NCBI GenBank assembly: GCA_038380435.1
Contig: JAWZYU010000018.1
Coordinates: 48,780,251-48,844,250, forward strand
Reading direction: 5' to 3'
Length of the DNA: 64,000 nucleotides
Source: Ryuthela nishihirai
Taxonomy: Eukaryota; Arthropoda; Arachnida; Araneae; Heptathelidae
A program made the translations under genes and the position numbers. Positions 229 through 54,605 of the stretch are shown piece after piece. The notes below the pieces were generated by a model. The model saw only the letters and a program-made list of their open reading frames with translations. It made no database searches and was not told the DNA's origin. Each line of letters begins with the position of its first letter. The stretch's first letter is position 1.

Positions 229-1986
229 GTATTCTGCTTTTAGTTTCTTTATACAGTTCATTTTTGAGCAACAAAAATATATTTTGAATGCGACAAATAT
301 ATATTGAATGAACAGATTCTAAAAAAAATTACGATAGTGGAGACAAGAATGCATAATTTATTTCACAAATCTTGATGGAATATATGGTGTTTTCGAACCA
401 TTAGTTTTAATAGCTTGAAGTTTCTTATCTCTATCAAAACTATACTAGTCTCCAAACGTTAAAGCACGACATTATGCTATATAAGAGGGAACTAAATTAG
501 AAGCTCTGAATTTATTAAATATGTTTTTTATGGAAAAATGAGACTGAAAATAAGATCCCGATTTAATCCCTATAAAACTAGATTTTCAGCAATATTAGTT
601 CCAGAATTTAAAGCGTTATCGCACTTCAAATATGTAAATGCAGAAATACCAGTAACAACAATTTACATAAGAATCTGATTAAAATTTAATAAGTGAGATT
701 TAAACCATTTAATAAAATAGTTAAATATCAGAATTGTAAGTAAATTCTTTCAATATTCGTCAACAGTTTTCTCTCTTAAACTCTTTAAACGAGAACTAAT
801 TGCGTAAAAAATCGAAATTTAAATTGGTTTAGAATATTTAGTTCATCGTCAGCCATAATTTTCCACGAAAGCTTTTTTTTCTGAAGTAATAAAATATTGT
901 GGTTAGCTTCGCATTAACGTAACACGGGAATATCTTAATTTTTGTGTCCTAGTGTAGCTGACATGAAGCCAAAATAATCCATATTTTAGGGGAAAATCGA
1001 ACCTATACGAACTGGCATGACAGTCAAAATCTACGTTGAAGAAACCATTCTTTAATATGTCAGTTTTCAGAAAAACTATTCTAAACAGAAGAAATATAAT
1101 TCAATTAATATTTGTAACTTCAAATCTGGCATCAGAAATTAAACTTTTCGTGACGTTAGTTTGTAAGCTAAACAGGATCGGATTAAGAATCGTTTTGGCC
1201 CCGGCCAAATTCAAAAATGACCCCCCCCCCCCCTTTCCCTATCAGTCTCAAGTTATCTAATAGGAACAAATTTACTGCATGATATTATCCGCAACAATAA
1301 TAGAAATTATTTGTTTTTGTTGTCAGCGGGAGAAAAAGATTTGAGCGCGTTACCAAATGTAACATTTTGCATCTTATTATTTACTTTTATTTTTTTTTAC
1401 AATTTCACTCAAGAATTGCAAAATCGAAGTAAATATTGTTTTACATAAGGAGTTGCAGATATTTTTGAAGCTAGTCACGCAAATAGGGTAATAATATTTG
1501 GTATCTTATAAACATAAGAGAAATTCATGCATTCTAAGCTTTTATTACCTTCAAATTTATCATTATTGCATGTCTTTGCTGCTTTCTCTCTTTTATTGGG
1601 ATATTCCTAAATTATTTAAAAACATTTCTTTCCTTAAAAGTGAGGCCCTCATTGAAGGTATAGCCTCTGGCCATGGTCGGTTTGGCCATTATGTTAATCC
1701 TTCCCTGAAGCTACATTACCATTTGACTAAAATTATCAATTTAAACCATTTGTTTTTACTGTGATGCGAAACTTTGATTAAGCGACTACGGCTGATACGT
1801 GTTTATAACGTACAGCCTATACAGTATATATTGTATCATCTATACACACACCATTTATATTTATTTGATGTGAAATACATGTATATATTAATACTTAACT
1901 ATACAAGTGTTGTCTGAGCGACTACAATCAAATTAAACCATGTAGTAAAACTGCTTATCATAACAATTTCATGCTGAATTACCTAT
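229..1986. other. AT-rich stretch without recognised gene
   Basis: I see no gene here. The open frames are short and carry no motif that I recognise. A 13-nt C homopolymer stands at about 1221-1233, next to GGCCCCGGCC. This resembles the C-rich edges of the M2-type MITEs seen elsewhere in the window, but no inverted end was found. Confidence 0.5.
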
Positions 1987-1994
1987 ATATGGCA

Positions 1995-2264
1995 CAGGCG
2001 TGAAGCGTGAGAGGAAGCAATTGAGACCAAGAAACTGCGCAGATGAGACATCGGTGATTCTTACAGGGGATTGATTTACAGAATTTTCAGTTACTTGTCA
2101 ATTAGACAATATGTCACGGATCAATAATTTCATTGGTATATCATAGATTATTGGTTCATTGAAAAGTTACTGATAACTCAATAAGCCAATGAACTACGAG
2201 AATCATTGTTTCGTCAACTGTGCAGTCTCATTGTCTCAATTACTTCCAATTTGCTTCGCCGCTG
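1995..2264. mobile_element. P1 palindromic hAT-type MITE, copy 1
   Basis: About 270 bp that folds back on itself. The left end CAGGCGTGAAGCGTGAG pairs with the right end (…TTGCTTCGCCGCTG), and the inner blocks AGCAATTGAGAC and GTCTCAATTACTTCC are inverted copies. It is flanked by ATATGGCA (1987-1994) and ATATTGCA (2265-2272), an 8-bp target duplication with one mismatch. That length is typical of hAT transposases. It has no coding capacity and so is a non-autonomous element. Eight more copies or relatives occur in this window. Confidence 0.88.
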
Positions 2265-2474
2265 ATATTGCACCTTTACCAGCTGATCATTATTAGTTCT
2301 GGAATTGCATCATCTGGACAATATTAACCTTTTAAGAGATATGGTGACTGAGACCATACACGTGTTTATGTTTGTACGCAGGTTACAAAAGCTCAATGTG
2401 CAGTTAAGGGTTCAGATAAAACAATAAAATTATTCCTTAAGTAGATCTGACAGTAAGCCACAGAGATGACGAGT

Positions 2475-2562
2475 AAGGAAAGCGACATCTGAGCAGAAAG
2501 AAACATCCATACCTTATCCAAAGTTTCAACCCAGGTCCCTTTGTTGGCTAGCTAACTAATCA
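2475..2562 (-). mobile_element. SINE-B fragment, diverged
   Basis: On the minus strand the order is GGTTAG, GCTAGCCAACAAAGGGACCTGGGTT, then GGTATGGATG and TTTCTGCTCAG. This follows the SINE-B copy near 61.4 kb through box B and the start of the body. It is decayed and truncated, with no target-site duplication seen. Confidence 0.6.
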
Positions 2563-4062
2563 ATTGACGCATTTCTAGATTTATTTATTTATTTATTAAC
2601 ACCCATTATCCACGTGAATTTTATAGAGGGCGTTTAAAACATTTCCATATGTCTATAGATTTGCGCTCTTTCCTCCGGAGTTAACGAGTTACGATTTTTT
2701 TGAAAGCTTGTTTAAATTTGATATTGCGTGTTAAAAACAAAGGCCGTATCATCATTTCTTTCTTCGCTGGCGGCGCGTAAATTTCGGTCTATATTGTGTG
2801 TGCGTTGTTCCTATGGAACAGCTGCTCAACATTCCCTTACTAGGAGCAAGAGAGCTTAAAGAATTATCACGGCAAGACTCCCGACTCTACAGCTAAAAGG
2901 GGAGTAGCATTGTCATGACCACTTTCGTCTTAAGGGCATGATCAATGATTTGAAGGAATTTCTTTTGGTAACGTTTATTCCAGACCTACGCAGGTGTGGA
3001 TCTCAATGGTGTTAGTTTTAAAGAACAAGTGGGTGTTTAAGGATTGCTGCTGATGAACGTCTCTCCCCCACCTCACAAACAAGAAAAATCCCCATCCCAC
3101 ACAAAATAGTCTGGAAGACGAAATTAGAATACTACTGGGATTTAATCTCTGTCTGTAAACATATTTGTTTATTTTATCTTTCCCCTATATTTATTTTATC
3201 TTCCCTTTCTCCTGGGGTCTCGCCCCAGAAGAAGCGAGCGAGGCCCCAGCAGAAAGCAGCAGTTCTGCTAGGCGAGGCCCCAGAAGAACGACAAGTCACA
3301 TGTCCATACTTGATGAGCGAATATTGTAAACTATCTATTTAAGAAAATTGAACTTCTGAAAAAATTTGAAGTTCTGAAAAAATTTGAACTTTAGATGGCA
3401 TAGTATGATGGTCAAGATGTTTACAGTGACTGATTTTCTTCCTTAACTCCAAAGCAATGGTAAAACGCAGCCTTTCGATTTCAAAGGACGAATCATAAAT
3501 TATTTTTTGTGTTTTATACGTACTAATAACATATTATTTTTTTGCATTTTTTTCACTCATCCAACAATTTGAAGTAGTTATTGTTAAAGGTAACGAGTCG
3601 AAAAATAAAAAAAAAAAACTTCATTCTATTTTAAACTAGAAGAACGCGTATTGCCTCTGGCGCATATGAGAATCTCGTTTTCAAAGAGAATGAAGATTTT
3701 CCTTTACCAACAGTTTCATTCCTTAAAAGTTTTAATTTGAGCTAGTGGATGATGGAAAAAATGCAAATAATATTTTATTAGCAATTTTACAACATAAAAG
3801 TATGCGTTTTTTTAATTCTTAAATCTGAAAAGTTGCATATCCCAACCTCTCTCAGAAAATTGGGTAGACTATTGCTGTCAGTGGAAAATCTCTTAAAAAC
3901 TACCACCAATTTTCACATTTCTATTTTATATATTTTATTTGTAAAACTCGATAACAGCTCTACTGTTTTATATTTAGGGATCTGAAAGATATATATTAAA
4001 ACTATTAAGTATTTGGAAAATGCGAATTATAATAATATTATTTTATTAGTAAAAAAATAAAT
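2563..4062. other. No gene recognised; two small repeats
   Basis: There is no credible coding frame. At 3205-3292 a GC-rich segment repeats the block GCGAGGCCCCAG with variants and the inverted form CTGGGGTCTCGCCCCAG. At about 3349-3390 a 20-bp unit (AACTTCTGAAAAAATTTG) is repeated roughly twice in tandem. The part near 3860-3960 weakly resembles the T1 repeat that follows at 4.28 kb. Confidence 0.5.
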
Positions 4063-9174: not shown

Positions 9175-9551
9175 TGGAGCGGGGGTGGCTCAGTCGGTAG
9201 CGCGCCAGGCTCGTAATTTCCCAGGTTCGAGTCCCAGTTGGGTCAGCGTTGAGATTTATCTCCGCAAAATTCCCTGCCCTGCCCACGGTCAGTAGGGGAC
9301 ACCGATGGGCTTGGAAAGGCCGCCGTCCGTCGGATGGGACATTAAGCCGTGACCCCGTGTGCGGGAGAGCCATATCCTGTGCACATTAAAGAACACGCTG
9401 GATGGCCTTGACGGGAGGCTACCATCTGTTTCCCAACAGCTGTTCCAGTGGGTCCCCTCCTCCAACCTTCTCTGAGCCTACGGGGTCCATGTGACCTGGC
9501 CATTTAGCCCATGGTGTGCAAAAAAGTGCCGCTCAGAGGTAAAACAACCCA
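9175..9551 (+). mobile_element. SINE-A, complete reference copy
   Basis: A 377-bp tRNA-derived SINE. The head carries box A (TGGCTCAGTCGGTAGCGCG) and box B (GGTTCGAGTCC). The body runs through CAGTAGGGGACACCGATGGG and GCCGTCCGTCGGATGG to CGCTCAGAGG. The tail is TAAAACAACCCAAC, an AACCC-type tail and not poly-A. An exact 11-bp target duplication ACTGTCTCCTT flanks it (9164-9174 and 9552-9562). The short frame on the minus strand is a shadow of this repeat, seen in every copy. Confidence 0.95.
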
Positions 9552-9562
9552 ACTGTCTCCTT

Positions 9563-17126: not shown

Positions 17127-17321
17127 GTAATTTGTATGCAAGGTTAGAAGAAAGTATGCTGATTGAAATTTTGGAGTGACATAAGAATTTTTTTTCTAAA
17201 ATAATGAACTGAGCATTGCTGCTTTGTTTCATAAGATAGCGTTTGTTAAGAAATGGTAAAAAACTCTAATTTTTATGAATTTTATGGGCAAAAATATGGC
17301 CTAAATTATAAGTAGCTTTGG

Positions 17322-17697
17322 GTTGGGTTGGGTTGTTTTACCTCTGAGCGGCACTTTTTTGCACACCATGGGCTAAATGGCCAGGTCACATGGACCCCGA
17401 AGGCTCAGAGAAGGTTGGGGGAGGGGACCCACTGGAACAGCTGTTGGGAGACAGATGGTAGCCTCCCGTCAAGGCCATCCAGCGTGTTCTTTAACGTGCA
17501 CAGGGTATGGCTCTCCCGCACACGGGGCCACGGCTTAACGTCCCATCCGACGGATGGCGGCCTTTCCAAGCCCATCGGTGTCACCTACTGACCGTGGGCA
17601 GGGCTGGGAGTTATGCGGAGATAAATCTCAACGCTGACCCAGCTGGGACTCGAACCTGGGAACTACAGATTACGAGCCTGGCGCGCTACCGACTGAG
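17322..17697 (-). mobile_element. SINE-A, complete
   Basis: Minus-strand full-length copy with the (AACCC)n tail seen as GGGTTGGGTTGGGTTG at its left edge and box A near the right edge. An exact 12-bp target duplication AAGTAGCTTTGG stands at 17310-17321 and 17698-17709. The body is very similar to the copies at 9.2, 18.2 and 32.2 kb. Confidence 0.95.
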
Positions 17698-18236: not shown

Positions 18237-18597
18237 GCGCCAGGCTCGTAATCTGTAGTTCCCAGGTTCGAGTCCCAGCTGGGTCAGCGTTGAGATTTAT
18301 CTCCGCAAAATTCCCCGCCCTGCCCACGGTCAGTAGGGGACACCGATGGGCTTGGAAAGGCCGCCGTCCGTCGGATGGGACGTTAAGCCGTGGCCCCGTG
18401 TGCGGGAGAGCCATACCCTGTGCACGTTAAAGAACACGCTGGATGGCCTTGACGGGAGGCTACCATCTGTCTCCCAACAGCTGTTCCAGTGGGTCCCCTC
18501 CCCCAACATTCTCTGAGCCTTCGGGGTCCATGTGACCTGGCCATTTAGCCCTTGGTGTGCAGAAAAGTGCCGCTCAGAGGTGAAACAACCCAAACAA
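18237..18597 (+). mobile_element. SINE-A, 5'-truncated
   Basis: It begins at GCGCCAGGCTCG, lacking box A, and is complete to AACCCAAACAA. An exact 11-bp duplication CTCCCTCATTA stands on both sides (18226-18236 and 18598-18608). 5' truncation with an intact target duplication is the signature of target-primed reverse transcription. Confidence 0.95.
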
Positions 18598-18884
18598 CTC
18601 CCTCATTAATGAATGCTTGTATAAAAAACTTTTTAGCTTATGCAAATTATTTCTAGTATTTTTAATTAAAGAAAAATACTGATATTTTAATTTTCACCTT
18701 AATTGAAAATTCATAATAGCTTAAATTACGAAGAATTAGAAAAAGATTTAGGGAATTCTTGTTTTGTATAAAACTATTTTTTTTGTACCCGGGCTCGGAA
18801 TTGCTCGGGCCAGTAATTATTTAAATAATGTGGTTTCGGTTACAAAAATCTGAGCGGGAGCTCATCTGTAATTTATAAGATGTT

Positions 18885-32153: not shown

Positions 32154-32720
32154 GTCCCGTGGCCGAGTGGTTAGCACGCTTGGCTACTGATCTAAGGGAC
32201 CTGCTTCCCAGGTTCGAGTCCCAGCTGGGTCAGCGTTGAGATTTATATCTCCGCAAAATTCTCCGCCCTGCCCACGGTCAGTAGGGGACACCGATGGGCT
32301 TGGAAAGGCCGCCGTCCGTCGGATGGGACGTTAAGCCGTGGCCCCGTGTGCGGGAGAGCCATACCCTGTGCACGTTAAAGAACACGCTGGATGGCCTTGA
32401 CGGGAGGCTACCATCTGTCTCCCAACAGCTGTTCCAGTGGGTCCCCTCCCCCAACCTTCTCTGAGCCTTCGGGGTCCATGTGACCTGGCCATTTAGCCCA
32501 TGGTGTGCAAAAAAGTGCCGCTCAGAGGTAAAACAACCCAACCCAACCCTAAGGGACCTGGGTTCGAGCCCCGGATTAGGCATGGATGTGTGTGTCGTTT
32601 TTCTGCTGAGGTCCTACCATCCTCTCAGATCTCCTACTGTGGCATATAAACTGGCAGGCTCCTGTCAGATCTCTGTGGCAAGCAGCTGCTTGAGGGGGTA
32701 TTTATTTTTTATTTTTCTGT
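32154..32720 (+). mobile_element. SINE-B split by a SINE-A
   Basis: The SINE-B head (CCCGTGGCCGAGTGGTTAGC… CTAAGGGACCTG) ends at 32203. A SINE-A follows, and SINE-B resumes at 32549 with a second CTAAGGGACCTG, GGGTTCGAGCCCCGG, GGCATGGATG and the 3' end GCAAGCAGCTGCTTGAGGGGG. The SINE-B body is otherwise complete. A plus-strand frame of 205 residues that starts here crosses three different repeats and is not a gene. Confidence 0.92.
32204..32548 (+). mobile_element. SINE-A nested in SINE-B
   Basis: 5'-truncated between the boxes (starts CTTCCCAGGTTCGAG) and ends in (AACCC)n. The exact 12-bp duplication CTAAGGGACCTG at 32192-32203 and 32549-32560 marks the target site. The body is almost identical to the 17.3- and 18.2-kb copies, which implies recent activity. 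Confidence 0.95.
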
Positions 32721-38309: not shown

Positions 38310-39706
38310 CACCTAATGTCCAACCCCACCTTCTCGTGGTGTAGACCGTTAGTTCTTTTCAAAAGTGATACTCTCTTGTGGAAGTGAACAGAAGTGGAGG
38401 ACTGCCAGATTAGTGTGGCCTACTGATCTCGGCAACTATGGCTACTTTTTTTTTTACTTTTCTACCCTGCTGAGGAGTGGTCAACCACACAGGGTCCTGG
38501 TGCTGACCATATAAACCTACTGGACTGATATTTGGCTCTGAGCTTGATTATGGCTCCTGAATTTGCTGCACTGGTGGGCTTCTGTGGAGGGAAAATCTTC
38601 CGCTGTATTTTCTGTTTGTTTGTGGGTTGACAGCCCCAAATGAATAGATTCACAGGATATATTTATCAGCTGGTGGATAATCCTGAGCAGACACCTGAAC
38701 TCTTAGCTTCCCTGGCATCGTCAAATTTTACATTGGAGGAAGTCTTCCAGTGTAGATGGCTTCAGTATTTAGTGGTGGGGGAACGGGTCTTTGCCCCATA
38801 TCTGCGATTAGGGGGCTGTTTGATATTGTCGGCATTACCTCTCGCAATCAACATAGTTTCTTTAAACATCCTATTAACCATTTTCTCTCCATAGGCAGTT
38901 GGAATGTGAGGACTCTGCATAGAGCTTTTTCTCTTGATGTCCTCACACAAGACTTTTACCGTTATAATTTTGATATTCTTGGCCTGCAAGAGATAAGATG
39001 GACAGATAATGGTCAGATTCTTAAACATAATCTTAAATTTCTCTTTCCAGGGTGGAAAGATGAGAAACATCACCAAATTTGTACAATGTAATTCACTATG
39101 TACAATGTAAAGTACCAGAAAATATTATCAATATACTCACCAAGGCGTGGGTCTGCTTCTCAGCAGACACGCTAGTAATGCTCTTCTAGGATATGAGTGC
39201 ATTAATGAAATGTTTCTTACATCAAAATTCCAGACAAGCGTTAAAGACTTGAATGTTATCTGCTGTTATGCCCCCACTGAGGATGCCGATGAGGATGAGA
39301 AGGATAGGTTTTACGGACAACTTCAGGATATTTTGAATTCTGTCAAGATATTACCCTTGTTCTAGGTGACTTGAATGCCAAAGTTGGTACTGACTCTGAC
39401 CTTTGGGGAGGGGTGATAGGCTCCTTTGGTATTGGTAGCTGCAATGGCAATGGGCAACGTCTCCTAAAGGTAAGTAAACTCAATGGTTTCAGAATAACTA
39501 ACACATATTACAAACACCGCGACTTACATAAGTACACATGGGTTTCTCCTGATGGGCTGCATAAGAATATGATTGATTATATATTAATTAGCAACAAATG
39601 GACTAGTTCTGTTAAGAATACCAGGTCATATAGGGGAGCTGAAATTGGATCTGATCATTACCTTGTTAAAAGTGTCTTGCAACTTAAACTTAAAAAGTGT
39701 TGAAGT
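38310..39706 (+). pseudogene. LINE (RTE/CR1-like): leader and endonuclease domain
   Basis: Same family as the element at 25.1 kb. The endonuclease is the best preserved in the window: GSWNVRTLHRAF near 38895, DILGLQEIRWTDNGQ near 38970 (catalytic Glu), CCYAPTEDADEDEKDRFYGQL near 39265, LGDLNAKVGTDSD near 39365, HKYTWVSPDGLHKNMIDYI near 39530 and GAEIGSDHYLVKS near 39640 (the terminal SDH). At least two frameshifts (near 39091 and 39366) separate three frames. The reverse transcriptase is absent because the sequence stops where the giant palindrome starts. A live enzyme of this kind would nick target DNA. Confidence 0.88.
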
Positions 39707-39709
39707 GTA

Positions 39710-42700
39710 AACCATTGCAAAGACATCGCTTTTGCAACAGCAAGAGCAAAGATAAAAAATAAAACTCCCTTCCTATTCCAACAGCTTATTTTAATACTAA
39801 GCCGTTTCAAAAACATCTTGATTGCATCAACATAAGACACACCGATTAAAAACGTTCTTATGAATTTAAACCTGTTTCAAATTCATCCACTTTTCCTTTT
39901 TTAATACTAAACGACTTCAAAGACATATGAACAAGAGATAAAAAAACTTTACTCCCTTCCCAATTCATTAATTTATTCTTCCTTTTTTTTTATTACCAAA
40001 CCGACTCAAAGACATAGTGTTTGCATCAGAACAGTTAAAAAACTCATTTTCTTTTTTATTCCTTACATTTAATTCCAGTATATCCGTTACGCAACTTGGT
40101 CTCAAGTTTAAAACTCCTTTTTATTCCTAATACTTATTGTCGCTGTATCCCCAATTCAGCACATAATTCACTTATGCAAAATATTATTCTTTCCTAGGAA
40201 GTAACGTTACTCAGTAACAATCGATGACAAAATATTATTTGTTCCTCGGAAGAAAAAAATCAACTAATAAAATTATTTGAAAGCAAGAAATCATTTAAAA
40301 AACAACCTTAATTACAAACACTCTTACCGTTTTAAAAATCGCTCTTTCCTCCATTTACAGGTGAACGTGTGATCACAAGACCATAACTCATCGCGCTGAT
40401 GTTGTTGTTGTTGTGTATCCTCTGAGCGGCAGTTTTTGTTTTGCACACCATGGGCGAAATGGCCAGGTCACATGGATCCCGAAGGCTCAGAGAAGGTTGG
40501 GGGAGTGGACCCATAGAACAGCTGTTGGGAGACAGATGGTAGTCTCCTGTCAAGGCCATCCAGCGTGTTCTTTAACGTGCACAGGGTACAGCTCTGCCGC
40601 ACACAAGGCCACGGCTTCACGTCCCATCCGACGGACGGCGGTCTATACAAGCCCATCGGTGTCCCCTACTGACCGTGGGCAGGAAATCTTGCGGAGATAA
40701 ATCTCAACGCTGACCCAGCTGGGACTCGAACCTGGGAACTACAGATTACAAGCCTTACGCGCTACCAACTCAGCCACCCCCACCACATATCGGGCTGATG
40801 AAAATTTATTTCGTGTTGCGGCCCATCGTTAATACACGTATATTCGTGCTCGTTATGTTTATTTATATGGTCAGGTATTCAGTTGTCTTTTATTGGATAA
40901 AAAATAATTCTGTAAATAATTTTTGTACACGGTTGAGTTTTATAAAAACGCTTCTTCGTGTAAAATATACGTTGTTAATGCTAAAAGTAGAAAACAATTC
41001 ATACGTTGCGGGTAGCCTTGCGTTGCGTCTCAAACACTTTAAAGCATCTATCTTTAATTCTATGCCAAGCACAACATGAACTTAACCGTATGTTAATGAA
41101 GGAGGGGAAGGGATATTAGTTTTAACAAATACTACAAAATACACTCATATAATAAGCTATTTAGGATTCAAATCAAATGTGAAATTATAATGCACTTAAT
41201 AAATCGTTTGCCTCACTAGTTCGATATACTGATAAACTTATAAGCTAATCCGTCGAATTTTATTTGCAACTGAATTGATAGTCAAAATTTAGCAAATATT
41301 TACCTTCTGTATTCAAGGAGCATCGATTATATCAGTATATCTGTGGAACAAGCTACGTCAGATAGTTTCTTCGATACGATATTAGTAACAGAAAAAACGC
41401 GCCTCACTAAAAATTTAACAAATAATTTTATAACTCAAAACTTGAAGTAATAAACTTTGGATACGTAAGTAGGAGGTTAATGAGGGTTCTGGACCAGAGA
41501 CGGATCAATGTTAATACTATGGGATCCGCCTCCCATGTGTTTCAAAGCAGAGGCGGCTCATTGTCGCACCTATGAGTCAGAACTCTCACTGTTTTAAGAC
41601 TGTAGTCAGAGAATGTCGAATAAAATACCTCCCTCCACAGGTGTATTAATCTGATATTATATTATTCAGTTAAATTGCATATAATAATTGATATATAACA
41701 GATGGTTTTGAATAACAACTCACTCGTAATTTCCACCAACACCCATCACGGTTTCCGACATCATCACCTCACAAACTTCACCGTTCATCCACCATTTTAA
41801 ATTCCATCATTTTAACTGCAAAGCCCCGAATTTTTCCAAGTTCAGAGTCCGCAATTTTGAATCCTGACGTCGCCACAAACTCCCGCATTTTTTGTCGTAC
41901 ACCCGCTATCTTGGCCCCGCCATTTTGAATCTTGACGTCACCTATTAAAAGTTTTACCTTTAAAACTATTTTTACACAATAGCATTTTTTTATTTACATT
42001 TTCTGCGGGGTAGTCTTTTATTTCAGTTTCTGCGGGATAGTTCTCCTAGTATAAATACGACATCCATCAGTCAGAATCCCCATTCTGTTGTAAGACGTTG
42101 ACAGTGTCAGTTCTCTGCTACTGCGTCTCCGTGATTTTTCAACTGCAATAGTGATAGTTCTCGACGTCCTCGTGTAGTATAAATCGGCTATTTTGCAAGT
42201 TACTGTTTTCGAAATGTATCCATGTGATATATGTTAGAAGACTTTCACGCTCCGGACGAATCTCGTTCGCCATAAGAGAAATCACGATGGAAATAGCCTG
42301 TTTAAAAGTTCTCAATGTGAATCGACATTCTCAAGGAGAGATGACATCCGACGTCATGAGTTATCCCACACCTCCAGGAAAACCTACAAATGCGAAGAAT
42401 GTGCAATGGAGTTTGAAAGAAAAGACAAACTTTTACGCCATCAAAGAAAACCACACAATAATAAGCGAAAGCTTTCCGAAGATGAAATGATTCCATAGAA
42501 GAAACAAAAATCAGACCCTTAAGACCTCTGCCGGTTTACAGAAGAAATGAAAAGGACCCCGTCAACACATAAGCTGATGGCAACGGAACAAACATCTGTT
42601 GACCTCACTTTTTTCCTTGAATCCTCGCGGGAGTCACTCCTAACTCATCTGAAAGAAGAATTGGCAACGAAAGGTAGCATTAAATGGTATCTTGCCGTGA

Positions 42701-42992
42701 AAGTGCGCTTCAGACGAAAAGTTTCCCCTTCTATTTTCGAACACTGCACCCCATTTTTCGGAAGTAACTGTGTCACAAGTCTTCCTACATCATCCCTAAA
42801 CAAAGAACTGGATACAGCGTGCAAGAAGATCAAGACTTCATTTGAAGAATTTGAAGGACCACATAGTGGATGGACACTGGATGCTGTACTCCACGCTGAA
42901 ATGAAAATTGGAAAATATATCCCTCTTGCAGGGTCTAGTTATATCCCTACTCCAAGAGAATTACTGTTAAAACACGCTAATGTCAATGTATG
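39710..42992 (+). repeat. Giant palindrome, left arm
   Basis: The inverse of this arm is found at 43632-45237 and 49562-51028. Anchors: 39711 (ACCATTGCAAAGACA) with about 51027; 40800-40860 with 50290-50345; 41220-41460 with 49570-49820; 42214 with 44416; 42992 with 43632. Coordinate sums stay constant near 86624 in the inner part and shift by the size of known insertions in the outer part. The extreme left part holds about 100-130 bp tandem blocks (TCAAAGACAT, TTAATACTAA). A SINE-A interrupts at 40402-40788. Confidence 0.93.
40402..40788 (-). mobile_element. SINE-A inside the left palindrome arm
   Basis: Complete minus-strand copy; its tail is (ACA)n-like instead of (AACCC)n. Target duplication ATCGCGCTGATG (40390-40401) and ATCGGGCTGATG (40789-40800), one mismatch in 12. 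It is absent from the matching place in the right arm near 50330, so it inserted after the arms formed. Confidence 0.93.
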
Positions 42993-43640
42993 TAATTCTG
43001 ATAAAAAATGTTTTGACTGGTCTGTTTTAGCCTCTTTGTATCCTTCCACAGATCATCCACAACGTCCTATCATCTACATTCATTTAGAAGAAAAATTAAA
43101 CACACATGACCTAATTTTTCCTATAACAATAAATCAAATATCAAAATTCGAAAAAATGAACATTTCTGTCAATGTTTTTGGATGCGAGAAAGAGGTGTTC
43201 CCGCTCTACATCATGTCATTCAGATTTAAAGAGCATGCAAATATTCTTCTGTTATCGGATGATGAAAAGCAGCATTATTGCTCCATTAAGAATATGAGCA
43301 GACTTCTCAGTCCTCTCACTAAACATAAATACTAGGATTTCTATCGTGATTACTGCCTTCACCTTTTCACAAATGAATCACTCTTGAAGGATCATATTCC
43401 CCATTGTCAAGAACATGACCCCAGAGGAATATAATTTCCAATTAAAGAGAAGAAGTGGCAGAAATTCACAAATTTCAAGTTTCAACAGCCCGTTCATTAC
43501 GTGATTTACGCCAACTTTGAATCATTCCTAGTGAAAGTGGACACTTGTATGCCTAAACCTGCAAAATGTCACACCACTATCACGGCAAATCATGAACCCT
43601 GTGGATTTGCATATCTTGTTGTTGGACTTTTACATACATT
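42214..43640 (+). pseudogene. Protein-primed DNA polymerase B-like gene, left copy (5' part)
   Basis: The start at 42214 (MYPCDIC) opens a C2H2 finger that continues KTFTLRTNLVRHKRNH after an in-frame TAG at 42235-42237. Further fingers follow. Then comes a 262-residue open frame (42547-43335) with SVDLTFFLESSRESLLTHL and FRRKVSPSIFEHCTPFF, ended by a TAG after KHKY. Beyond it DYCLHLFTNESLLKDHIPHC is a Cys/His zinc-binding pattern. At about 43500 VIYANFESF sits where protein-primed family-B polymerases have their exonuclease I Asp-x-Glu; here the Asp is Asn. Soon after GFAYLVVG the frame runs into the inverted arm, so the polymerase palm (motifs A-C) is missing. The family link (Polinton/adintovirus-like) is by recognition of this motif order. 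Dead by several lesions. Confidence 0.75.
42993..43631 (+). other. Palindrome spacer (single-copy centre)
   Basis: These 639 bp have no inverse nearby. They contain the second half of the surviving polymerase-like gene part, including the zinc-binding pattern and the exonuclease-I-like motif. A central spacer of gene sequence means that the arms did not arise as ordinary short terminal repeats. Confidence 0.85.
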
Positions 43641-44416
43641 GACAATAGCGTGTTTTAAAAGTAATTCTCTCGGAGTAGGGATATAACTAGACCCTGCAAG
43701 ATGGATATATTTTCCAATGTTCATTTCAGCGTGGAGTACAGCATCCAGTGTCCATCCACTATGTGGTCCTTCAAATTCCTCAAATGAAGTCTTGATCTTC
43801 TTGCACGCTGTATCCAGTTCTTTGTTTAGGGATGATGTAGGAAGACTTGTGACACAGTTACTTCGGAAAAATGGGGTGCAGTGTTCGAAAATAGACGGGG
43901 AAACATTTCGTCTGAAGCGCACTTGCACGGCAAGGTACCATTTAATGCTACCTTTCGTTGCCAATTCTTCTTTTAGATGAGTTAGGAGTGACTCCCGCGA
44001 TGATTCAAGGAAAAAAGTGAGGTCAACAGATGTTTGTTCCATTGCCATCAGCTTATGTGTTGACGGGGTTCTTTTCATTTCTTCTGTAAACCGGCAGAGG
44101 TCTTCAGGGTCTGATTTTTGTTTCTTCTGTGAAATCATTTCATCTTCGGAACACTTTCGCTTATTATTGTGTGATTTTCTTTAATGGCATGGATTTGATG
44201 GAATGGAGTTCTTTCAAACTCCATTGCACATTCTTCGCATTTGTAGGTTTTCCTGGAGGTGTGGGATAACTCATGACGTCGGATGTCATCTCTCCTTGAG
44301 AATGTCGATTCACATTGAGAACTCTTAAACAGGCTATTTCCATCGTGATTTCTCTTATGGCGAACGAGATTCGTCCGGAGCGTGAAAGTCTTCTAACATA
44401 TATCACATGGATACAT
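43632..44416 (-). pseudogene. Protein-primed DNA polymerase B-like gene, right copy (5' end)
   Basis: Mirror copy of the left gene from its start at 44416 to the palindrome centre. It has the same MYPCDIC opening and the same TAG (44393-44395). Frameshifts differ from the left copy around 44170-44210. A 182-residue frame (44138-43590) covers SQKKQKSDPEDLCRF to the PRELLLKHA block, then leaves the gene at the arm boundary. No exonuclease or polymerase motif is present in this copy. Confidence 0.78.
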
Positions 44417-44692
44417 TTCGAAAACAGTAACTTGCAAAATAGCCGATTTATACTACACGAGGACGTCGAGAACTATCACTATTGCAGTTGAAAAATCACG
44501 GAGACGCAGCAGCAAAGAACTGACACTGTCAACGTCTTACAACAGAATGAGGATTCTGACTGATGGATGTCATATTTATACTAGAAGGACTATCCCGCAG
44601 AAACTGAAATAAAAGACTGCCCCGCACCAAATGTAAATAAAAAAAAATGCTATTGGGTAAAAATATTTTAAAAGGTAAAACTTTTAATAGGT

Positions 44693-44850
44693 GACGTCAG
44701 GATTCAAAATGGCGGGGCCAAGATAGCGGGTGTACGACAAAAAATGCGGGAGCTTGTGGCGACGTCAAGATTCAAAATGGCGGGGCCAAGATAGCGGGTG
44801 TAAGACAAAAAATGCGGGAGTTTGTGGCGACGTCAGGATTCAAAATGGCG
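44693..44850 (-). repeat. 68-bp tandem duplication in the right arm
   Basis: Two full units at 44693-44760 and 44761-44828 plus a partial third. They carry GACGTC, AAAATGGCGGGGCC and ATAGCGGGTGT. The left arm has one unit (about 41865-41940). Confidence 0.88.
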
Positions 44851-46151
44851 CACTCTGAACTTGGAAAAATTCGGGGCTTTGCAGTTAAAATGATGGAATT
44901 TAAAATGGTGGATGAACGGTGAAGTTTGTGAGGTGATGATGTCGGAAACCGTGTGGGTGTTGGTGGAAATTACGAGTGAGTTGTTATTCAATACCATCTG
45001 TTATATATCAATTATTATATGCAATTTAACTGAATAATATAATATCAGATTAATACACCTGTGGAGGGAGGTATTTTATTCGACATTCTCCGACTACAGT
45101 CTTAAAACAGTGAGAGTTCTGACTTATAGGTGCGACAATGAGCCGCCTCTTCTTTGAAACACATGGGAGGCAGATCCCATAGGATTAACATTGATCCGTA
45201 TCTGGTACAGAACCCCATTAACCTACTATGTACGTATTACTGTTCCTGGTCAGTCACACCACTGAAAATTAACGTGGGGAATTCACCCTTCTGCAGAAAA
45301 ATGATACTGTAAGAAAAATCACAACACTGATTTACCTGTCATGTAAAAAAAGGCATGTACTTGATTAATGCTCGCGGTCTGATAATTTTTTTTCTTCTTA
45401 TCCTATTATCGCGAACGGTTGGATCAGCGAAGGATTTCAGCTTCCACATGTCGGGAAGTGCATCGGGCCAACTACGCCAGCCGATGAATTTTGCGCTTAA
45501 TTTTCTTGATCGCCCCAATAATGCTTTTACACAGACTTAGTGGCATCTCGATGGTTCGCACTGTTGAAGGATGGAGTCGTTTGCTCTGACATATATATAT
45601 ATGTTGTGATTGGACCTCAGTAAAAGAATTCTGCACTTTTAGACATGTCAGAAAAAATCGATGTTCACACAATCGAGTATAGAGCATATTGGATATAAGT
45701 GACATCAGACAATAAATAAAGTCTTTACAAACTGAACTAAAGCGCCACTCGGAGTGAAATATCCCAAGTCCGCAAATGCTCATCTTAATTAATAGGAAAG
45801 TTTCCTCCATGTACTCTCCTACTTCTTAAATTTAAACTATCCTACTATTGTCACTTAATCTGATGAAATGGCACGGAGACGCACGTGCGAGCAGGAAGCG
45901 CCGTTGCACGGTTCAAAGATCAAGGGTAACTTACCTACTGACCAGTGGAATGGTCCTTCGATATGAAATCAGATAAACGTAGCGTTTCTTAATCCCTTAC
46001 TTATGAGAAGTGCTCTCCATCTTCCATATGGTACAACTCCATGGATTTTATCTTCTTCAAGGATCTTTTCAACACTAATGGCGAAGTGAAATAATTATTC
46101 GCTTAGGAAATGCAGCGCTCAAGCGCTTTGCTGGGCTCATGGAGGGTAGTA

Positions 46152-46270
46152 CAGTCGCTCAAAAAAGTATCCGAACACCACGGTTGATTACAGAATTCAG
46201 AAAAAATATCTGGCAACGATTCTGAATTCTGTAATCAACCGTAGTGTTCGGATACTTTTTTGAGCGACTG
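46152..46270. mobile_element. M1 mariner-type MITE, short copy
   Basis: CAGTCGCTCAAAAAAGTATCC pairs with GGATACTTTTTTGAGCGACTG. TA stands on both sides (46150-46151 and 46271-46272). It is an internally deleted relative of the copy at 6229. Confidence 0.9.
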
Positions 46271-47229
46271 TACCATCATGGCTGGGCTAGGTCAACGGAC
46301 GATCCCGTATGCTGACATCTTTCCTTTGGAGGGGATCAACAGTTTACTGACTGCAAAAACTACTAAAAGCGGTCAGCAAATTTTAAAATATCCTCTTATA
46401 CTGTACTTACAATTAAAAACTATGTAACAGTTATCGTGAAACTATGGTTTTATCCCATCAGAAAAGGAAATAAAGAACATTAGAAAGAGAAAAACAAAAT
46501 CACTGCTAGAACAAAACCATACAGAAAATTTTACAGTTGTACACCAGAAAATTGTTAATTTAATATAACAAGAAATGTGTGTATGTTGCACGTCTTACTA
46601 GACGGTACCAATGTAACAAAAAATTCACTGTAAAAATGGGAAAACAAGCAAAGAAAGCATCGTTTAATACGAGTTTCAGAGAATAATAGAATGTGTAAAA
46701 GTTTCACAGAACAGTAGAATGTTTGCAATCCCGGTGTGACAGGAGGCAGAAGTAATGCGAAAAGAAATCTGCAGCAGCATAAATGTTAATTCCCACGTCA
46801 TTTGTTTGGTGCTAATAGCGTTAAACAAGCACCAATACCCACGGATTTTCAAATGACATTCAGGGTGTATCATTTCCATCACTTAAGTTTCATCTTCTTT
46901 AATTTTTTCCAACCCCAATAACACACAGTTTCTGCGAGACAGTCTCATTCCGGTGGTCATTTCAATGCGAAAATGGCGCAGGGGACGATCTTTCGCACAG
47001 TAGCGATATGAACATGCACATTGCTAAAAAGCAAACCTGGGCAATGAACGATGCATTTCTCTAGACAGGTGCAATTAAGTTTTGAACTAAAAGTCATGAT
47101 ATGGATGAAATTAGGAGTGTATGGAATATTTTTATACATAAGCATGTAAAGTAGAAACGCGCATTAAAACGGGAGATTTGCACAAAGAATGTCTATATTT
47201 TCGGACAAGTATTTCCATTCTCATACTCT

Positions 47230-48450
47230 TGTTAGGGTTCCGTGTGTATTTCTATAGTTATTTTTTCTGCAAGCATCAACTTTTCGATATACTAGAGCGA
47301 ATGTAAATCTACGTTTGAACAAGCGCGTAAGTAAGTAAACTGTGCTTGTAAAAGAGCGAAGATGGTTATTTTTCTCTGCAAGTACACGTTTTCGACAATG
47401 ATATGTATTCTCAAACGTGTTTCACTACGTGAGTAAATCTAACATGTGCATTTCATGTTTAAATAAGAATCGGTTTAATTATTTTTCCTGCATGAGAATG
47501 CGCATTTCTATACCAGCGCTAATTCTTTGAACAAGTGTGTAAGTACACTATGTTTGTATAAGTGTGAAAGTGATTGTTTTTCCTGCAAGGACAGGTTTTT
47601 CGATAATGATATGTATTCATACATGTGTTTCACTATGCGAGTAAATCTAACATGCACATTTCATGTTTAAGTAAGGGTGGGTTTAGTTATTTTTCCCGCA
47701 CGAGTATGTATTATTTGCGTGTATGTTTGTATGTTCAGTTGAAAAAAAAATCGAAAAGGGTTGGCGTCGTAGGTCTGAGGAGGCCGAATTTTTGATAAAG
47801 GTTTTAATAAGAAGCGGCACATAAGGTGTTTGATTAATGGGGGCTTTTGATTTCTGTATTTTATAAGAGCGAAAGTGGTTATTTTTCCTGTAAGGATAGG
47901 TTTTTCGACAGTGATATGTATTCATATATGTGTTTCATTGCGCGAGTAAATCAATATGCATATTTCATGTTCAAGAACGGTTTTGTTATTTTTCCCGCAT
48001 GAGATTGCATATTTCTTTTCTCGGGTTATTACAAGTATGTACACGTGCGAAGTACAATAGTAACGATATTTTAACCTCAAATATTAATTTTTTAAGAATT
48101 AGGGCATGAATGTCACAATTTCGTTTCCTGCAACAAAGTTTATTTCGAGTGAGATGCAAATCAGTAAGGTTATTTTTCCTGCAAACATTCACTTTATGTG
48201 TAAGCATGTGAATTTTACAGGTGCCTTCTCAGTTGTATGTGAATCAAGCATTCCCTTTTCTGAAGAAGAGACAAATCATTAGTATTATTTTTCTTACTCC
48301 TCTAGAAGGATTAATTACACATGTTCGCTTCCAACAAGAATGTGAGTAAAGTACGTTAATTTTGAGGGGGATGCAAATATACACTTTATACATAAGCATG
48401 TTAATAACGCCTGTTCCTGTTTCAGTTGCATGTGAATGAAGTATTCACTT
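47230..48450. repeat. Degenerate periodic array inside the 4.3-kb element
   Basis: The motif TTATTTTTCCTGCAAG recurs (near 47270, 47370, 47480, 47580, 47680, 47880, 47990, 48175). It alternates with GATATGTATTCAT, GTAAATCTAACATG and ATTTCATGTTTAA blocks, with larger periods of about 200-310 bp. On the minus strand the motif reads C-R-K-N-N, with nearby YHC and H residues, reminiscent of decayed C2H2 fingers. This reading is weak. No frame survives beyond 80 residues. Confidence 0.55.
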
Positions 48451-49034
48451 TTCTGAACAGGAGTGAAATCCACACATTCTGTATATCAAGTATAACATTT
48501 TATTTGTGAGTATAAGCCGATTTGGGTAATTTTCATGCAAGCTTTGCACATGCGATACCTACTTATGTTTTTCGGAGTGTTAGAACCTGCATGTATAAAA
48601 TTAGTTTTTTCCACGAGTTTCGAAGATGCAGAAGCATTTTTTGTTCAAGAGATAGTTATTCCTAAATATTTCACCACTGATCGGAACTTGAATATTCATA
48701 TTTCGGAAGGTGTAAGGATTTTTCGTCACAGAGTTTCCTTCAACGGGTTTGAATCTTTTTGAGCACGACTGTCTTACACCTATGTCTTACGTTACGTTTT
48801 TTGTCAGATGTCTCGTAACGAACAAAACGTTTATTTAGAGCATATGTCTTAAGAGATGTGTGTTTTTTTGTTAATACAGAAGATGACAGGATAGCGGTTA
48901 GGTTTAAGAACTTGAAAAAAAAACTCCATAACGGAACTTTGTGCAGCGCACGAAATACGATAGAAACTAGCGATAGCATGAGAATTTTCAAACTTAGAAA
49001 AATCCAAAATCTTGTAGAGGGCCACGAAATGCGT

Positions 49035-49322
49035 TAAGAACGCTGCGGAGGGGCGCTAAAAGGTGAGCAATGACTTGACAGTGAGAAATCCAGTAGTTTC
49101 GCACAAAGGGATTCAAGGGATGAAAAACGTATAATAATCTGATAAAGAAATTCCAGTTGTGTCAGATAATAGGACTGAGCGTTCCTTTTGAGGCACAAGG
49201 ATTTTGTCCCTTTTCATGGATATTACGTTTTATCACCCCTTCACCTTTTGTGCGACACAACAAGGATTTATCTCGTGTCAGGTCATTGCTCACCATTTAG
49301 CGCCGCCCAGCAGCGTTCTTAT
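49035..49322. repeat. Subterminal inverted repeat of the 4.3-kb element
   Basis: TAAGAACGCTGCGGAGGGGC, GCTAAAAGGTGAGCAATGAC and TTGACAGTGAG (49034-49085) are matched by the inverse of 49272-49322, with few mismatches. They lie just inside the right terminal repeat and could be a nested MITE. Confidence 0.8.
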
Positions 49323-49561
49323 GGATGCTAAAATATATCTTATGTTCATGTGGATGCTGAAATCTTTCGCTGATCCAACTGTTCCCGATAATAGGATAAT
49401 AAAAAAAAAATTCATCAGTCCGCAAGCGTTAATCAAGTACACGACTTTTACATGAAAGATAAATCAGTGTCGTTATTTCTCTTAGAGTATCGTTTTTCTG
49501 CACAAGGGTGAAATCCCCCACCTTAGTTTTCAGCGGTGTGACTGATCAGGAGTAGTAATAA

Positions 49562-51028
49562 GTACATATCTAAAGCTTATTATTTCAGGTTTGGAGTTTT
49601 AAAATTATTAGTGAAATTTTTAGTGAGGCGCGTTTTATCTGTTACCGATATCTTATCGAAGAAGCTTTCTGACTTCGCTTGTTCCACTGATATACTGATA
49701 TAATCGATACTCCTTGAATACAGAAGAAAAATATTTGCTACATTTTGACTATCAGTCCAGTTGAAAATAAAATTTCGACGGATTATCTCAGGTAAGTTCA
49801 AAGGTTTATCAGTATATCGATCTAGTAAGGCATTTATTGATTGCATTATAATTTTTATTGAGTGCATTATAATTTTATAGTTTTATTGAGTGCATTATAA
49901 TTTTATAGTTTTATTGAGTGCATTATAATATTATAATTTAATTGAGTGCATTATAATTTTATAGTTGATTTGAATCCTAAATAGCTTAATTAAGGGAGAT
50001 GAGTTTATTTTATAGTATATTTTAAAACTAATATCCCTTCCCTACCGTAACATACGGTTAAGTTCATGTTGTGCTTGGATGTAGAATTAAAGATAGATGC
50101 TTTAAAGTTTTTGAGACGCAACGCAAGGCTATCCGCAACCTATGGATTGATTTCTACTTTTAGCATTCAAAACTTATTTTTTCACGACGAGGCGTTGTTA
50201 TAAAACTTAACCGTGTGCAAAAACTATTTACAGAATTATTTTTTATCCATTGAAAGACAACTAAATAACTAATCCTATAAACAAACATAGCGAAGACGCA
50301 TGTACGTGTACTAATGATGGGCCACAAGACGAAACAAAATTTCATCATCTTATGTTTTCGTGATCACACGTTCACTAGTAAACGGAGGAAAGAACGGTTT
50401 TTTAAAACGGTAAGTTTGTTTATAATTACGTTTTTTTTCTTAATAATTTCTTGCTTCCAAATAATTTTATTAGTGGATTTTTTTCCGAGGAATAAATAAT
50501 ATTTTGTTATCGATTGCTACTAGTAGCGTTACTTCCTAGGAAAGAATAATGTTTTGCATAAGTGAATTATGTGCTGAATTGGGGATACAGCGACAATAAG
50601 TATTAGGAATAAAAAGGAGTTTTAAACTTGAGACCAAGTTGCGTAACGGATATACTGGAATTAAATGTAAGGAATAAAAAAGAAAGTGAGTTTTTTAACT
50701 GTTCTGATGCAAACACTATGTCTTTGAGTCGGTTTGGTAACAAAAAAAAGGAAGAATAAATTAATGAATTGGGAAGGGAGTAAAGATTTTTTTATCTCTT
50801 GTTCATATGTCTTTGAAATGGTTTAGTGTTAAAAAAAGAAAAGTGGACGAATTTGGAACTGGTTTAATTTTATAAGAATGATTTAATCGGTGATTCTTAT
50901 GTTGATGCAATCAAGATGTTTTTGAAACGACTTGGTATTAAAATAAGCTGTTGGAATAGGAAGATGAGTTTTATTTTTTATCTTTGCTCTTTGTGCTGTT
51001 GCAATCACGTTGTCTTTGCAATTGGTTT
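49562..51028 (-). repeat. Giant palindrome, right arm, outer part
   Basis: Inverse of about 39710-41460 without the SINE. Its end (ATCTTTGCTCTTTGTGCTGTTG … TTTGCAATTGGTTT) matches the left arm start. A tandem array at 49820-49970 has no left counterpart. Confidence 0.9.
49820..49970. repeat. Short tandem repeat, TTGAGTGCATTATAATTTTA
   Basis: About five units of 28-36 bp, each with GAGTGCATTATAAT. The left arm (about 41180) has one unit in inverse form. This is a local expansion after arm formation. Confidence 0.9.
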
Positions 51029-51590
51029 AGTAGGATAATAAAATAAATTAATGAATTGTGATTTGTAGAAGGAATATAATTTTTTGTTCTAAGATAGTGT
51101 AGCAGCGGTGGAAATGAAAATTTAGAATGTTTAACGAAATTCGAGAAGATTTAAATTTATAAGTAAGGATGTTTTTAACCCGTGATTCATGTAGTGAGGT
51201 CTTTGAAATGGTTTAGTTTTGGATAAGTGTTTTAATATGAGGCGGTGCATTTAAATAAGGTGTTTAATAAGGGGACATTTTAATAAGAGGGGCGGCACTT
51301 TTGATAAATGATTTAATTAAGAGAGCTTTTTAATAAGAGGGGGTGGGAATTTTGATAAGTGTTTAATTAATAAGGAACTTTTAATAAGAGGAGGGTGGCA
51401 CTTTTGATAATTGTTTTAATAAGAGGGGGGTAGAACCAAACTTTGATAAGTGTTTTGATCAAGGGGGATTTTTAATAAGAGGGGGTGGCACTTTTGCCAA
51501 GTTTTAATTAGAATTTTAATTAATAAAGGGTGTGGTTAGTTTTGAATATTAATAAGGTATGTGATCAGTAACGTCATAGGGGGAAAGCAC
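51029..51590. repeat. Tandem repeats beyond the right arm end
   Basis: From about 51220 to 51510 a 60-80 bp unit recurs: TTTTAATAAGAGGGGGTGG, CACTTTTGATAAGTG, TTTAATTAA. Before it, further copies of the arm-end blocks (TCTTTGAAATGGTTTAG, AATAAATTAATGAATTG) continue past the point where the left arm stops. The right arm may therefore keep more of the original element end than the left. Confidence 0.75.
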
Positions 51591-52440: not shown

Positions 52441-54605
52441 AATTTATTTTTTCCACTTGACATGAAAATTAAGTTTTCAAAAATATTTCTCTAAAATATA
52501 TTATACTTATTAATTTGCTTGATATATGAAATAAGTAATTTATAACATTTTAATTTATTCTTATAGTTTTCAGGCTCTAAAATACTTTTGAAATTATAGT
52601 TTGTGATGTTCATTTTATTTAATGCATTATAGTATTTTTTTCTTTCTTCCTCAAATTTTTTACATACGAACAATGTATGTTCTAGATTTTCATACTCATT
52701 ACACATGTCACATGCCGGGGAGTCTTTTTTTTTTCATTTTATATAATAAAGCCTTTGATAATACCGAATTTGTTTTAATTTTTATTATCAAATTAATTTC
52801 TTTTTTATTAAAATCAAAGTTATTAAATTTTGAAATTATTGGTGAAATTCTGTATCTATGTGTATGATTAGCATTCCTATCATACCATGTCTGTGTTTCT
52901 ATTATAATATTTTTTTTATTTTGTTTTTTAATTATATATAAAAATTGAGGATTATCAAAATTTGGACTGATATTTATTGCTTCTTTAGCTTTTTTGTCTA
53001 CTATTTCATTATATTTTATACCAACATGACTTGGGATCCATTGTATATAGATCATATTCTTATTGTTTATATGGTTTTTGGTTAAAATTAATATGTCATT
53101 TATGAATGATTTAAAGTTACTTTTTAAAGGATCATTATATATGGTTTCTATAGCAGCTTTGCTATCAGTAAAAATTACTATCTGCTTATTTTTAAATTTC
53201 AGTGCCCCATTTATTGATAAGATAATTGCAGATAGTTCTGCTACTAAGATAGGGTTTGATTTACTAAATTTAGATAATTTTTCAAAATTTTCTTCTGGGC
53301 AAAGAAATGCTCCAGCAAGAGCATTACTTTCTTCTTTCAAGGATCCATCTGTGTAAATATGTATTAAATTTTTATAATTATTTTCAATATGCATATATGA
53401 TAACATTTTTAGTGTGTTTATATCATGACTATTTTTTGTTTGTAAATTATTAATATTTGTTTTAAGGATAGGAAATGTAGAAGTCCATATTGGAATTTCT
53501 ATATTATATTCTCCACTAGTTCTTTTATTTAAAATCTGTTTTATATCATTTTTACAAGTTAAGTTTTCAATAGAAATATCCTTAAAGTTATTTAATATTT
53601 TTTTCATTTATTGGATGTGAGATATTTTTTAATGAAATTCTGTATGTCAGATTATTTAATAAATATTTTTTTTAATTGATATAGGTGGTATAGCGGTTTC
53701 TGCGTAAATGTTAAGTCCATTTGAATTTTGATGCAAACCAATACCAAATTTTAAAATTTTTAATTGTATATTTTCTAGTTTTTTTAATTTGGTTTTTGAT
53801 ATATTATTAATACGTTCTATGCCATAAAAGCTTTTTGGAAATATTATTGAGTTGTATAATAAAAGTAATTTTTTATTTTCATAAAGAATATTTAATAATA
53901 ATTAATAATTAATTAATTATATATCTGGTTGGACCTCCGTAGCCCATGGCTGCTTGAGGATGATGATGATAATGATGAATATTTAATAATATAATTTCAT
54001 TTCAAACAGAATAGCTTAGCCTCTATTCTGTTTGAAATGTCGTCAGGCCCTGCAGTGGATTTAAGGTTTGAGGTGTCTATGGCGTCTGTTAATTCTTTCA
54101 CTGTTATTGGGGTATAAATTATCTTATTTTCTTCCCTGTCTTCTATGTCTTTGTACTGTTTTTTTTCCCAGTTGTGTATTTTTTTCCTTATTTGTCATAT
54201 TTGGGTTGGACGAAAATTCAATATATGACAGGAAGTGTTTGGCAAATTTAACAGCTATTTCTTTTTCCGATAGGTTTTTTTTAGCATGAGGTTAATCCAG
54301 AGTTTAGCTTGGGTGGTTGTTTGATTTATTGATTTTATCGTATTCCAGATTTTGGTAAGAGAGGTAAAAATGTTGATTTTGTTGCATATATTTTGCCAGT
54401 TCATTTTTCTAGTTATTTGATTTTTTTTTTTGATAGATGCTACTATTTTTTATATGCTGTTATATCATTGATTTGTCCAGCACGTTTTGCCTTTCTTTCC
54501 GCTCTTCTATGTACGTGATTAGCTTTTTTAGATATATGGTTTGCGTATTATTGTAGTTGTGCTTAAATATTTTGGTATAGCTTTCTTGTTTGGCAGTGTT
54601 AATAT
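52441..54605 (-). pseudogene. Jockey/I-type LINE ORF2: RT start, RNase H, cysteine tail
   Basis: Minus strand. Near 54105-54040 VKELTDAIDTSNL, then STAGPDDISNRIEA, marks the start of the reverse transcriptase. The palm is missing or deleted. The frame 53607-52708 (299 residues) holds an RNase H domain: YTDGS with Asp87, AELSAI with Glu124, FTDSKAA with Asp148, WIPSHVG with His194 and IVDKKAKEA with Asp204, so the DEDD set is intact. At 52706-52735 a run of ten A shifts the frame. In the next frame CDMCNEYENLEHTLFVC gives the terminal zinc-like motif. A 76-bp retroposed insert sits at 53901-53976. The copy is dead because the polymerase core is gone. Confidence 0.85.
53901..53976 (+). mobile_element. 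76-bp retroposed insert with (GAT)n tail
   Basis: Contains GGACCTCCGTAGCCCATGG, CTGCTTGAGG and GATGATGATGATAATGAT. An exact 15-bp duplication GAATATTTAATAATA stands at 53886-53900 and 53977-53991. It looks like an extremely truncated SINE or LINE 3' end; its parent family is not in this window. Confidence 0.85.

Follow-up and report, generated by a model that had tools for sequence, protein, structure and literature searches.

How two facing 5' parts of one DNA polymerase gene come to lie in a long inverted repeat is the question raised by a locus on contig JAWZYU010000018.1 of the spider Ryuthela nishihirai. The locus was analyzed within a stretch of 64,000 nucleotides (nt), here called the window, and all positions are coordinates of that window. 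An earlier note, made from the sequence alone, had described a giant foldback with arms of 3 kilobases (kb), derived from an element with a family-B DNA polymerase (PolB), and had suggested the shape of a snap-back molecule. Our analysis points to an old, shortened copy of a palindromic element of Polinton/adintovirus type, belonging to a class formed by snap-back; we consider this reading likely.

Two nested structures in the window

Self-BLAST of the window recovers the inverted repeat, the main pieces of which match at an expect value (E) of 0, so that chance similarity does not explain it. Together with the alignment of the arms it bears out the facing 5' parts of one gene and the single-copy centre, which measures 634 base pairs (bp; 42996-43629) rather than the 639 bp first given and is the left gene copy continuing beyond the point where the right copy ends. 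The whole repeat has 2,868 aligned arm positions with 93.3% identity, unevenly distributed (83-100% per 100 bp).

The description as a single foldback with 3-kb arms had to be given up. The repeat is made of two nested structures. One is the PolB element; the other is the older element Z (39708-51029), and what had been taken for the outer "arms" are its terminal repeats. Full-length relatives of the PolB element, on the loci C29, C21 and C3 described below, start matching at window positions 41460-41468, and with 41468-45227 excluded the flanks align to the opposite terminal repeat of Z (90.4% over 1,555 positions). Because these relatives start there and the Z repeat closes over the gap, we place the boundary of the PolB element at 41468; 39708-41467 and 49563-51029 belong to Z, since they align to its other terminal repeat. 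The uneven arm identity arises because the PolB element (96.6%) sits inside the Z terminal repeats (90.4%). A decayed 5-6-bp duplication (ACGTA / ATGTAC) flanks the PolB element within Z. As judged from these comparisons, the PolB element was inserted into the left terminal repeat of Z, and the Z repeats, at 90.4% versus 96.6%, are the older.

A family of palindromes across the genome

The genome of the same species (3.11 gigabases in 1,680 contigs, labels with C denoting its contigs or loci) was searched with several queries. In each search 40 candidates were scored, out of 1,883 to 3,813 first-look candidates, and the counts are lower bounds. The 1,419-bp gene segment gave at least 42 matches at 88-100% identity (2,936 candidates), which hold at least five facing pairs in addition to the window. 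Three of the five (C29, C21 and C3) are palindromes of about 13.4 kb, and their arms can be aligned for 6.5-6.6 kb, with identities of 99.6%, 99.9% and 99.8%, respectively. They have AGTAG ends, 6-bp target duplications and one long inward PolB gene per arm, and their spacers (265 bp in C29, 207 bp in C21 and 255 bp in C3) have identical boundaries. The other two pairs are shorter (2,887 bp at 98.5% and 1,864 bp at 97.7%). Eight of 28 chosen single matches were fetched for an arm check; four proved to be inverted pairs and four showed one arm only in the stretch.

With a 601-bp query from the gene-free outer part, at least 14 facing end pairs were found (1,883 candidates), 12 of them spaced at 12.4-14.9 kb and the others at 3.3 and 5.2 kb; one extra end adjoins a pair on C19, and 11 of the 40 scored ends had no scored partner. 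Inverted arms are present in all eight central stretches taken from facing end pairs, and the arms of seven further facing pairs, compared over their outer 2.5 kb, are 93.6-99.8% alike. There is no single-copy gene body between the terminal repeats, as C29, C21, C3 and all eight of these centres are palindromic. A 562-bp centre query was matched over all or nearly all of its length at not fewer than 21 loci (3,813 candidates).

The 6-bp target duplications are perfect in nine of ten PolB palindromes besides the window (GATGCA, GAGGTG, GGTATA, TGCATT, CCGGCA, CCCGTA, GAGGAG, GGTCTC and CCCTTT), and that of C10 agrees at five of six bases (GCGGTG/GCCGTG); those of the seven outer-end pairs were identified by eye from the flanks. 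The assembly search suggested in the earlier note found the arms at many loci; the central junction of the window's element was absent from the other scored loci. The pattern of facing arms itself recurs at other loci.

The polymerase gene

The left gene copy of the window, read from its ATG at 42214, encodes C2H2 fingers, an N-terminal domain and the start of the exonuclease, motif included; the stop at codon 8 is present in both arms. A 262-amino-acid (aa) open piece of this copy matched 17 proteins at E <= 1e-3 among 453 candidates; where the source is named, it is Mytilus, Mya or Trichogramma. The young copies in C29, C21 and C3 have a PolB frame of 1,256 codons, or 1,239 aa when counted from the ATG; it includes zinc fingers and, only below threshold, an endonuclease VII domain. 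In C29, where the polymerase motifs were examined, the exonuclease motif, KLMNNAVFG and FTDTDS are all present, and these patterns we take to be PolB signatures. Of 7,986 candidates scored, 589 are PolB homologues at E <= 1e-20. PF03175 is present in several of the 120 that were listed, and named sources among those listed are Araneus, Larinioides, Trichonephila, Haliotis, Mytilus, Mizuhopecten, Pinctada and Actinostola. The young-copy frame itself does not reach PF03175 at E <= 0.01. Relatives, motifs and homologues agree with the PolB element first proposed, and we assign the gene to the family-B DNA polymerases of the protein-primed kind, with protein priming as a prediction.

Other searches added little. 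NCBIfam gave a single weak match, under its cut-off, a phage collection held no relative, and the best 60 of 224 matches to solved structures cover the zinc-finger part only. A structure predicted for the N-terminal piece was of low quality (mean predicted local distance difference test score 56.7) and was set aside. Viral-contig scans with the 262-aa piece and with the queries A1, P0010 and A2 found no relative; the scan with A3 found two in IMG/VR, L041 and L042.

The ratio of nonsynonymous to synonymous substitution (dN/dS) between elements, each compared with C29, is 0.15-0.31 in all 12 comparisons, and three other comparisons gave 0.20, 0.50 and 0.52. Such ratios indicate purifying selection on the PolB gene while the element is mobile. 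Between the arms of one element the pooled ratio is 0.74; of the five pairs that could be measured, four lie at 0.49-0.52, and C19 reaches 1.13. A relaxation of selection after insertion is suggested, not proven. The expectation of a whole class of non-autonomous derivatives stands as to the class, but not as to its being leftovers only, since the young palindromes keep a long PolB under purifying selection.

A second type of end and a probable snap-back scar

Part of the PolB palindrome centre matches other loci at 93-97%, including at least five facing pairs 11-16 kb apart. Two pairs examined, C47 and C16, begin at the element terminus AGTAGTTTG and have perfect 6-bp target duplications (GGGGTG and TGCCAG, respectively). 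In C47, palindromic arms of about 5.8 kb (99.8-99.9%) enclose a single-copy core of 1.5 kb, one frame of which has a PC4 domain (E 2e-8). C16 is closely related to C47, but its PC4 frame is broken. The stretches L051, L052, L055 and L056 hold palindromic elements of this kind, with a PC4-domain gene in a single-copy core. The PolB palindrome centre itself (L009:9487-9841) holds the terminus of the other element type: its left side has 264 bp of it, and its right side has about 46 bp in inverted orientation.

Two further loci, which by their end matches have this second, likewise AGT-type end, allow a palindrome to be compared with an ordinary-looking relative. C6 has 16.3 kb between end matches, and its central 3 kb is not palindromic. 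Its frames resemble a PolB C-terminus (YSDTDS), an ATPase (A32, 1.3e-3) and adenain (PF00770, 0.07), the latter two Pfam scores being below curated cut-offs, and Pfam gave no polymerase match for the PolB end piece. In its central 3 kb C6 reads like an ordinary Polinton. C11, compared over its centre and left outer part, has 11.0 kb between end matches, is palindromic over 0.8 kb on either side of the centre, and carries the 5' half of another PolB (PF03175, E 1e-22), truncated at the centre. One strand of C11 equals C6 at 100% over 311 bp, ending exactly at the hairpin GAATACCCT-18 nt-AGGGTATTC; past the hairpin, C11 continues as the reverse complement of the C6 sequence directly upstream of it. 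No other 9-bp inverted repeat with a loop of 3-40 nt occurs in 901 bp of C6. The turning point of C11 is the direct footprint expected from self-priming of a folded 3' end, in a single case. The snap-back shape first suggested for the locus thus recurs at other loci and has left such a footprint in one relative.

The arms evolve in concert

In a tree of arm pieces, which omits the left arm of C17 (a 399-bp match at a threshold of 400), 13 of 16 elements have their own two arms as sisters, with support that is weak in places (C5, 0.305); the non-sister elements C21, C29 and C7a fall in a cluster of near-identical young copies. Among private variants of C29, C21 and C3 (6,445 columns), 64 are mirrored in both arms, 14 are in one arm and 4 are of other kinds; C21 contributes 61 of the 64. 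Stops are mirrored in both arms at codon 8 of the window, codon 389 of C28 and codon 209 of C7, and because of this some elements would have been inserted with both gene copies already broken, or one copy would have been converted later. These comparisons show concerted evolution of the arms of one element.

Origin of the palindromes

The snap-back idea is well supported for the palindrome class. Protein-primed strand-displacement replication would release a single strand. By folding back at a small inverted repeat, the 3' end of this strand would serve as its own primer, and synthesis would run back to the 5' end. The product would have two identical replication and integration ends and could be inserted by a putative integrase supplied in trans, and later rounds through a hairpin or other intermediate would keep the arms identical. 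One such palindrome would have landed in Z, and either a deletion in the middle or a separate snap-back would account for the asymmetric 634-bp spacer now at its centre.

A competing view is that one ancient inverted dimer has been inherited without recurrent snap-back, the identity of its arms being maintained through a hairpin or panhandle intermediate that undergoes mismatch repair or gene conversion. The mirrored variants favour it, as do the spacer boundaries shared by C29, C21 and C3, because of which we regard the turn as inherited in the PolB1 family, and within that family inheritance is compatible with the snap-back origin of the class. As a general account it leaves unexplained the separate PC4 palindromes and C11, whose turning point lies within a gene, at a hairpin of the parent, and we put it at a little under an even chance. 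Duplication in the chromosome after insertion, by break foldback or by head-to-head copies that lost their middle, could point to the differing asymmetric centres of older copies and to a window junction seen at no other scored locus. We think it very improbable, given that the palindromes have 6-bp target duplications at both outer ends and lengths that recur (12 of 14 end pairs); because of these two features the palindrome itself must have been integrated. Giant palindromes are common assembly traps, and an artefact was considered as well; many loci with different flanks and target duplications, and older copies with arms differing by 1-7%, leave it hardly any room.

Several results weigh against a snap-back origin of the class, or against parts of it. 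They include the one-arm-only stretches among half of the fetched single matches, the 11 scored ends lacking a scored partner, and the arm-arm dN/dS of 0.49-0.52 in four of five pairs, which is not clearly neutral. No integrase-sized frame was seen in the palindrome arms by a scan for uninterrupted frames. The hairpin footprint is in one element only, C11, whose PolB and ends differ from those of the window's family, and no such hairpin was shown at the PolB1 palindrome centres, which hold the terminus of another element. At the window junction, no inverted microhomology of 5 bp or more was seen in the C29 arm.

Parental arm positions 2397 and 1762 meet at that junction. The centre of the window's element would fit either the loss of the middle of a full palindrome or a snap-back with a 634-nt loop. 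We lean towards the view that the spacer arose purely by central deletion after insertion, in keeping with the two parental positions joined, with a junction spanned at no other scored locus, and with spacers that are short in C29, C21 and C3 and longer, and different from one another, in several older copies. A de novo snap-back with a loop of this size would give the same structure, and neither route left a diagnostic microhomology.

A further proposal is tentative, and we put it at somewhat less than an even chance. In a Polinton-type lineage the snap-back form may have become the normal genome, an all-inverted-repeat DNA with a polymerase only, whose self-complementary replication keeps the arms identical and whose integrase is borrowed from ordinary relatives. 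If so, the palindrome lineage would be a satellite bringing its own polymerase. That a gene with a PC4 domain (single-strand-binding-like) is carried by palindromes of a parallel kind is a hint that the system may consist of several parts.

Comparison with known systems

In snap-back or copy-back defective genomes and in symmetric adenovirus recombinants, the same genome end occurs twice, in facing copies separated by a small loop. The palindromes have the same arrangement but are integrated and numerous, and one family keeps a long gene under apparent selection.

Vertebrate Mavericks are reported to have (AGT)2 or (AG)3 end motifs and 6-bp duplications, and intact ones to carry two modules that comprise genes for PolB, integrase, ATPase, protease and capsid (PMC8097293). 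The palindromes share AGT-type ends, 6-bp target duplications and a PolB with exonuclease and DTDS motifs, and by ends, duplications and polymerase they fall in with Polintons/Mavericks and adintoviruses; in contrast, their terminal repeat spans nearly the whole element, and integrase and capsid genes were not seen in the arms. The same frame scan (outer part in C29, inner part in C29 and C21) showed no frame of the size of a capsid, packaging ATPase or protease gene; outside PolB the largest ATG frame is 67 aa in the C29 arm, and the inner part of C21 has none of 40 aa or more. Because integrase and capsid genes were unseen in the arms and there is no single-copy body, they would be best described as Polinton-type palindromic elements rather than Polintons.

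Adintoviruses are defined, in the account given by PMC11071296, by a PolB with an OTU-like N-terminal domain plus a hexon. The PolB relatives with named sources are animal proteins, and two further relatives come from IMG/VR, points of likeness to adintoviruses. One of these viral-contig relatives, L041 (41% in the best segment), has an rve integrase and an A32-like ATPase and looks like an ordinary linear genome. Unlike the palindromes, L041 and L042 are without long inverted arms in the 15.4 of 17.4 kb and 13.8 of 15.1 kb examined; as for a hexon, the arms of the palindromes showed no frame of the size of a capsid gene. The foldback-like transposon Galileo, grouped with the P-element transposases (PMC3573991), also has very long inverted repeats, whereas the palindromes carry PolB.

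Among the titles and abstract openings of a limited literature collection, no palindromic Polinton was described. Snap-back replication of protein-primed genomes has mostly been inferred from defective virus stocks. The present genome would archive its products, one with the priming hairpin, and arm divergence would give them relative dates. It also suggests that a self-complementary, polymerase-only element can spread and remain selected. The case is also a warning about repeat libraries and assemblies, in which palindromes of this kind may have been broken up or collapsed.

Feature coordinates and neighbouring repeats

Table 1. Coordinates of the PolB element, its gene copies and element Z in the window
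Feature	Position	Strand	Basis
PolB palindrome element, 3,760 bp, ends AGTAGG...CCTACT	41468-45227	.	ends of relatives, empty-site comparison
PolB element left arm, portion paired with right arm, 1,528 bp	41468-42995	+	96.6% identity, 1,468/1,519 aligned positions
Single-copy spacer with PolB exonuclease motif I (VIYANFESF), 634 bp	42996-43629	+	33% over 64 aa to P0010, 37% over 65 aa to P0001
Central junction	43628-43631	.	spanned by the window alone, 1 of 40 scored (2,901 first-look candidates)
PolB element right arm, inverted, 1,598 bp	43630-45227	-	self-BLAST, arm alignment
Left broken 5' part of PolB gene; stops at codons 8, 95, 375, 408	42214-43629	+	
Right broken 5' part of the same gene; stops at codons 8, 77	43630-44416	-	start set by left-arm alignment
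Decayed target duplication ATGTA(C)	45228-45232	+	left partner ACGTA at 41463-41467
Z left terminal repeat, outer part; SINE-like insert at 40387-40793	39708-41467	+	self-BLAST, arm alignment, gap-removed alignment
Z left terminal repeat, inner remainder past the insertion	45233-45450	+	self-BLAST, gap-removed alignment
Z interior, no ATG/GTG/TTG frame >112 aa	45451-49346	.	frame scan
Z right terminal repeat	49347-51029	-	self-BLAST, gap-removed alignment

The right arm of the PolB element has a 68-bp tandem repeat at 44690-44850 (2.3 copies, with TGACGTCA-like and AAAATGGCGG sequences), of which the left arm has one unit fewer. A reading of 45238-49562 as a transposon nested in the right arm was rejected, this segment being the inner terminal repeat and interior of Z. 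A two-phase divergence of the arms through gene conversion of outer and inner parts was dropped, since the nesting in Z accounts for the arms.

No target duplication was seen at the outer ends of Z. Its left end adjoins an endonuclease fragment (38756-39703), probably from a long interspersed element (LINE), for which Pfam gave no plus-strand continuation in the 6 kb to the right. A repeat of about 350 bp resembling a short interspersed element (SINE) has several copies in the window (40387-40793, 9189-9553, 17316-17697, 18237-18598 and 32205-32553), and a retroelement RNase H frame (PF00075, 6.6e-18) lies at 52708-53607 on the minus strand.

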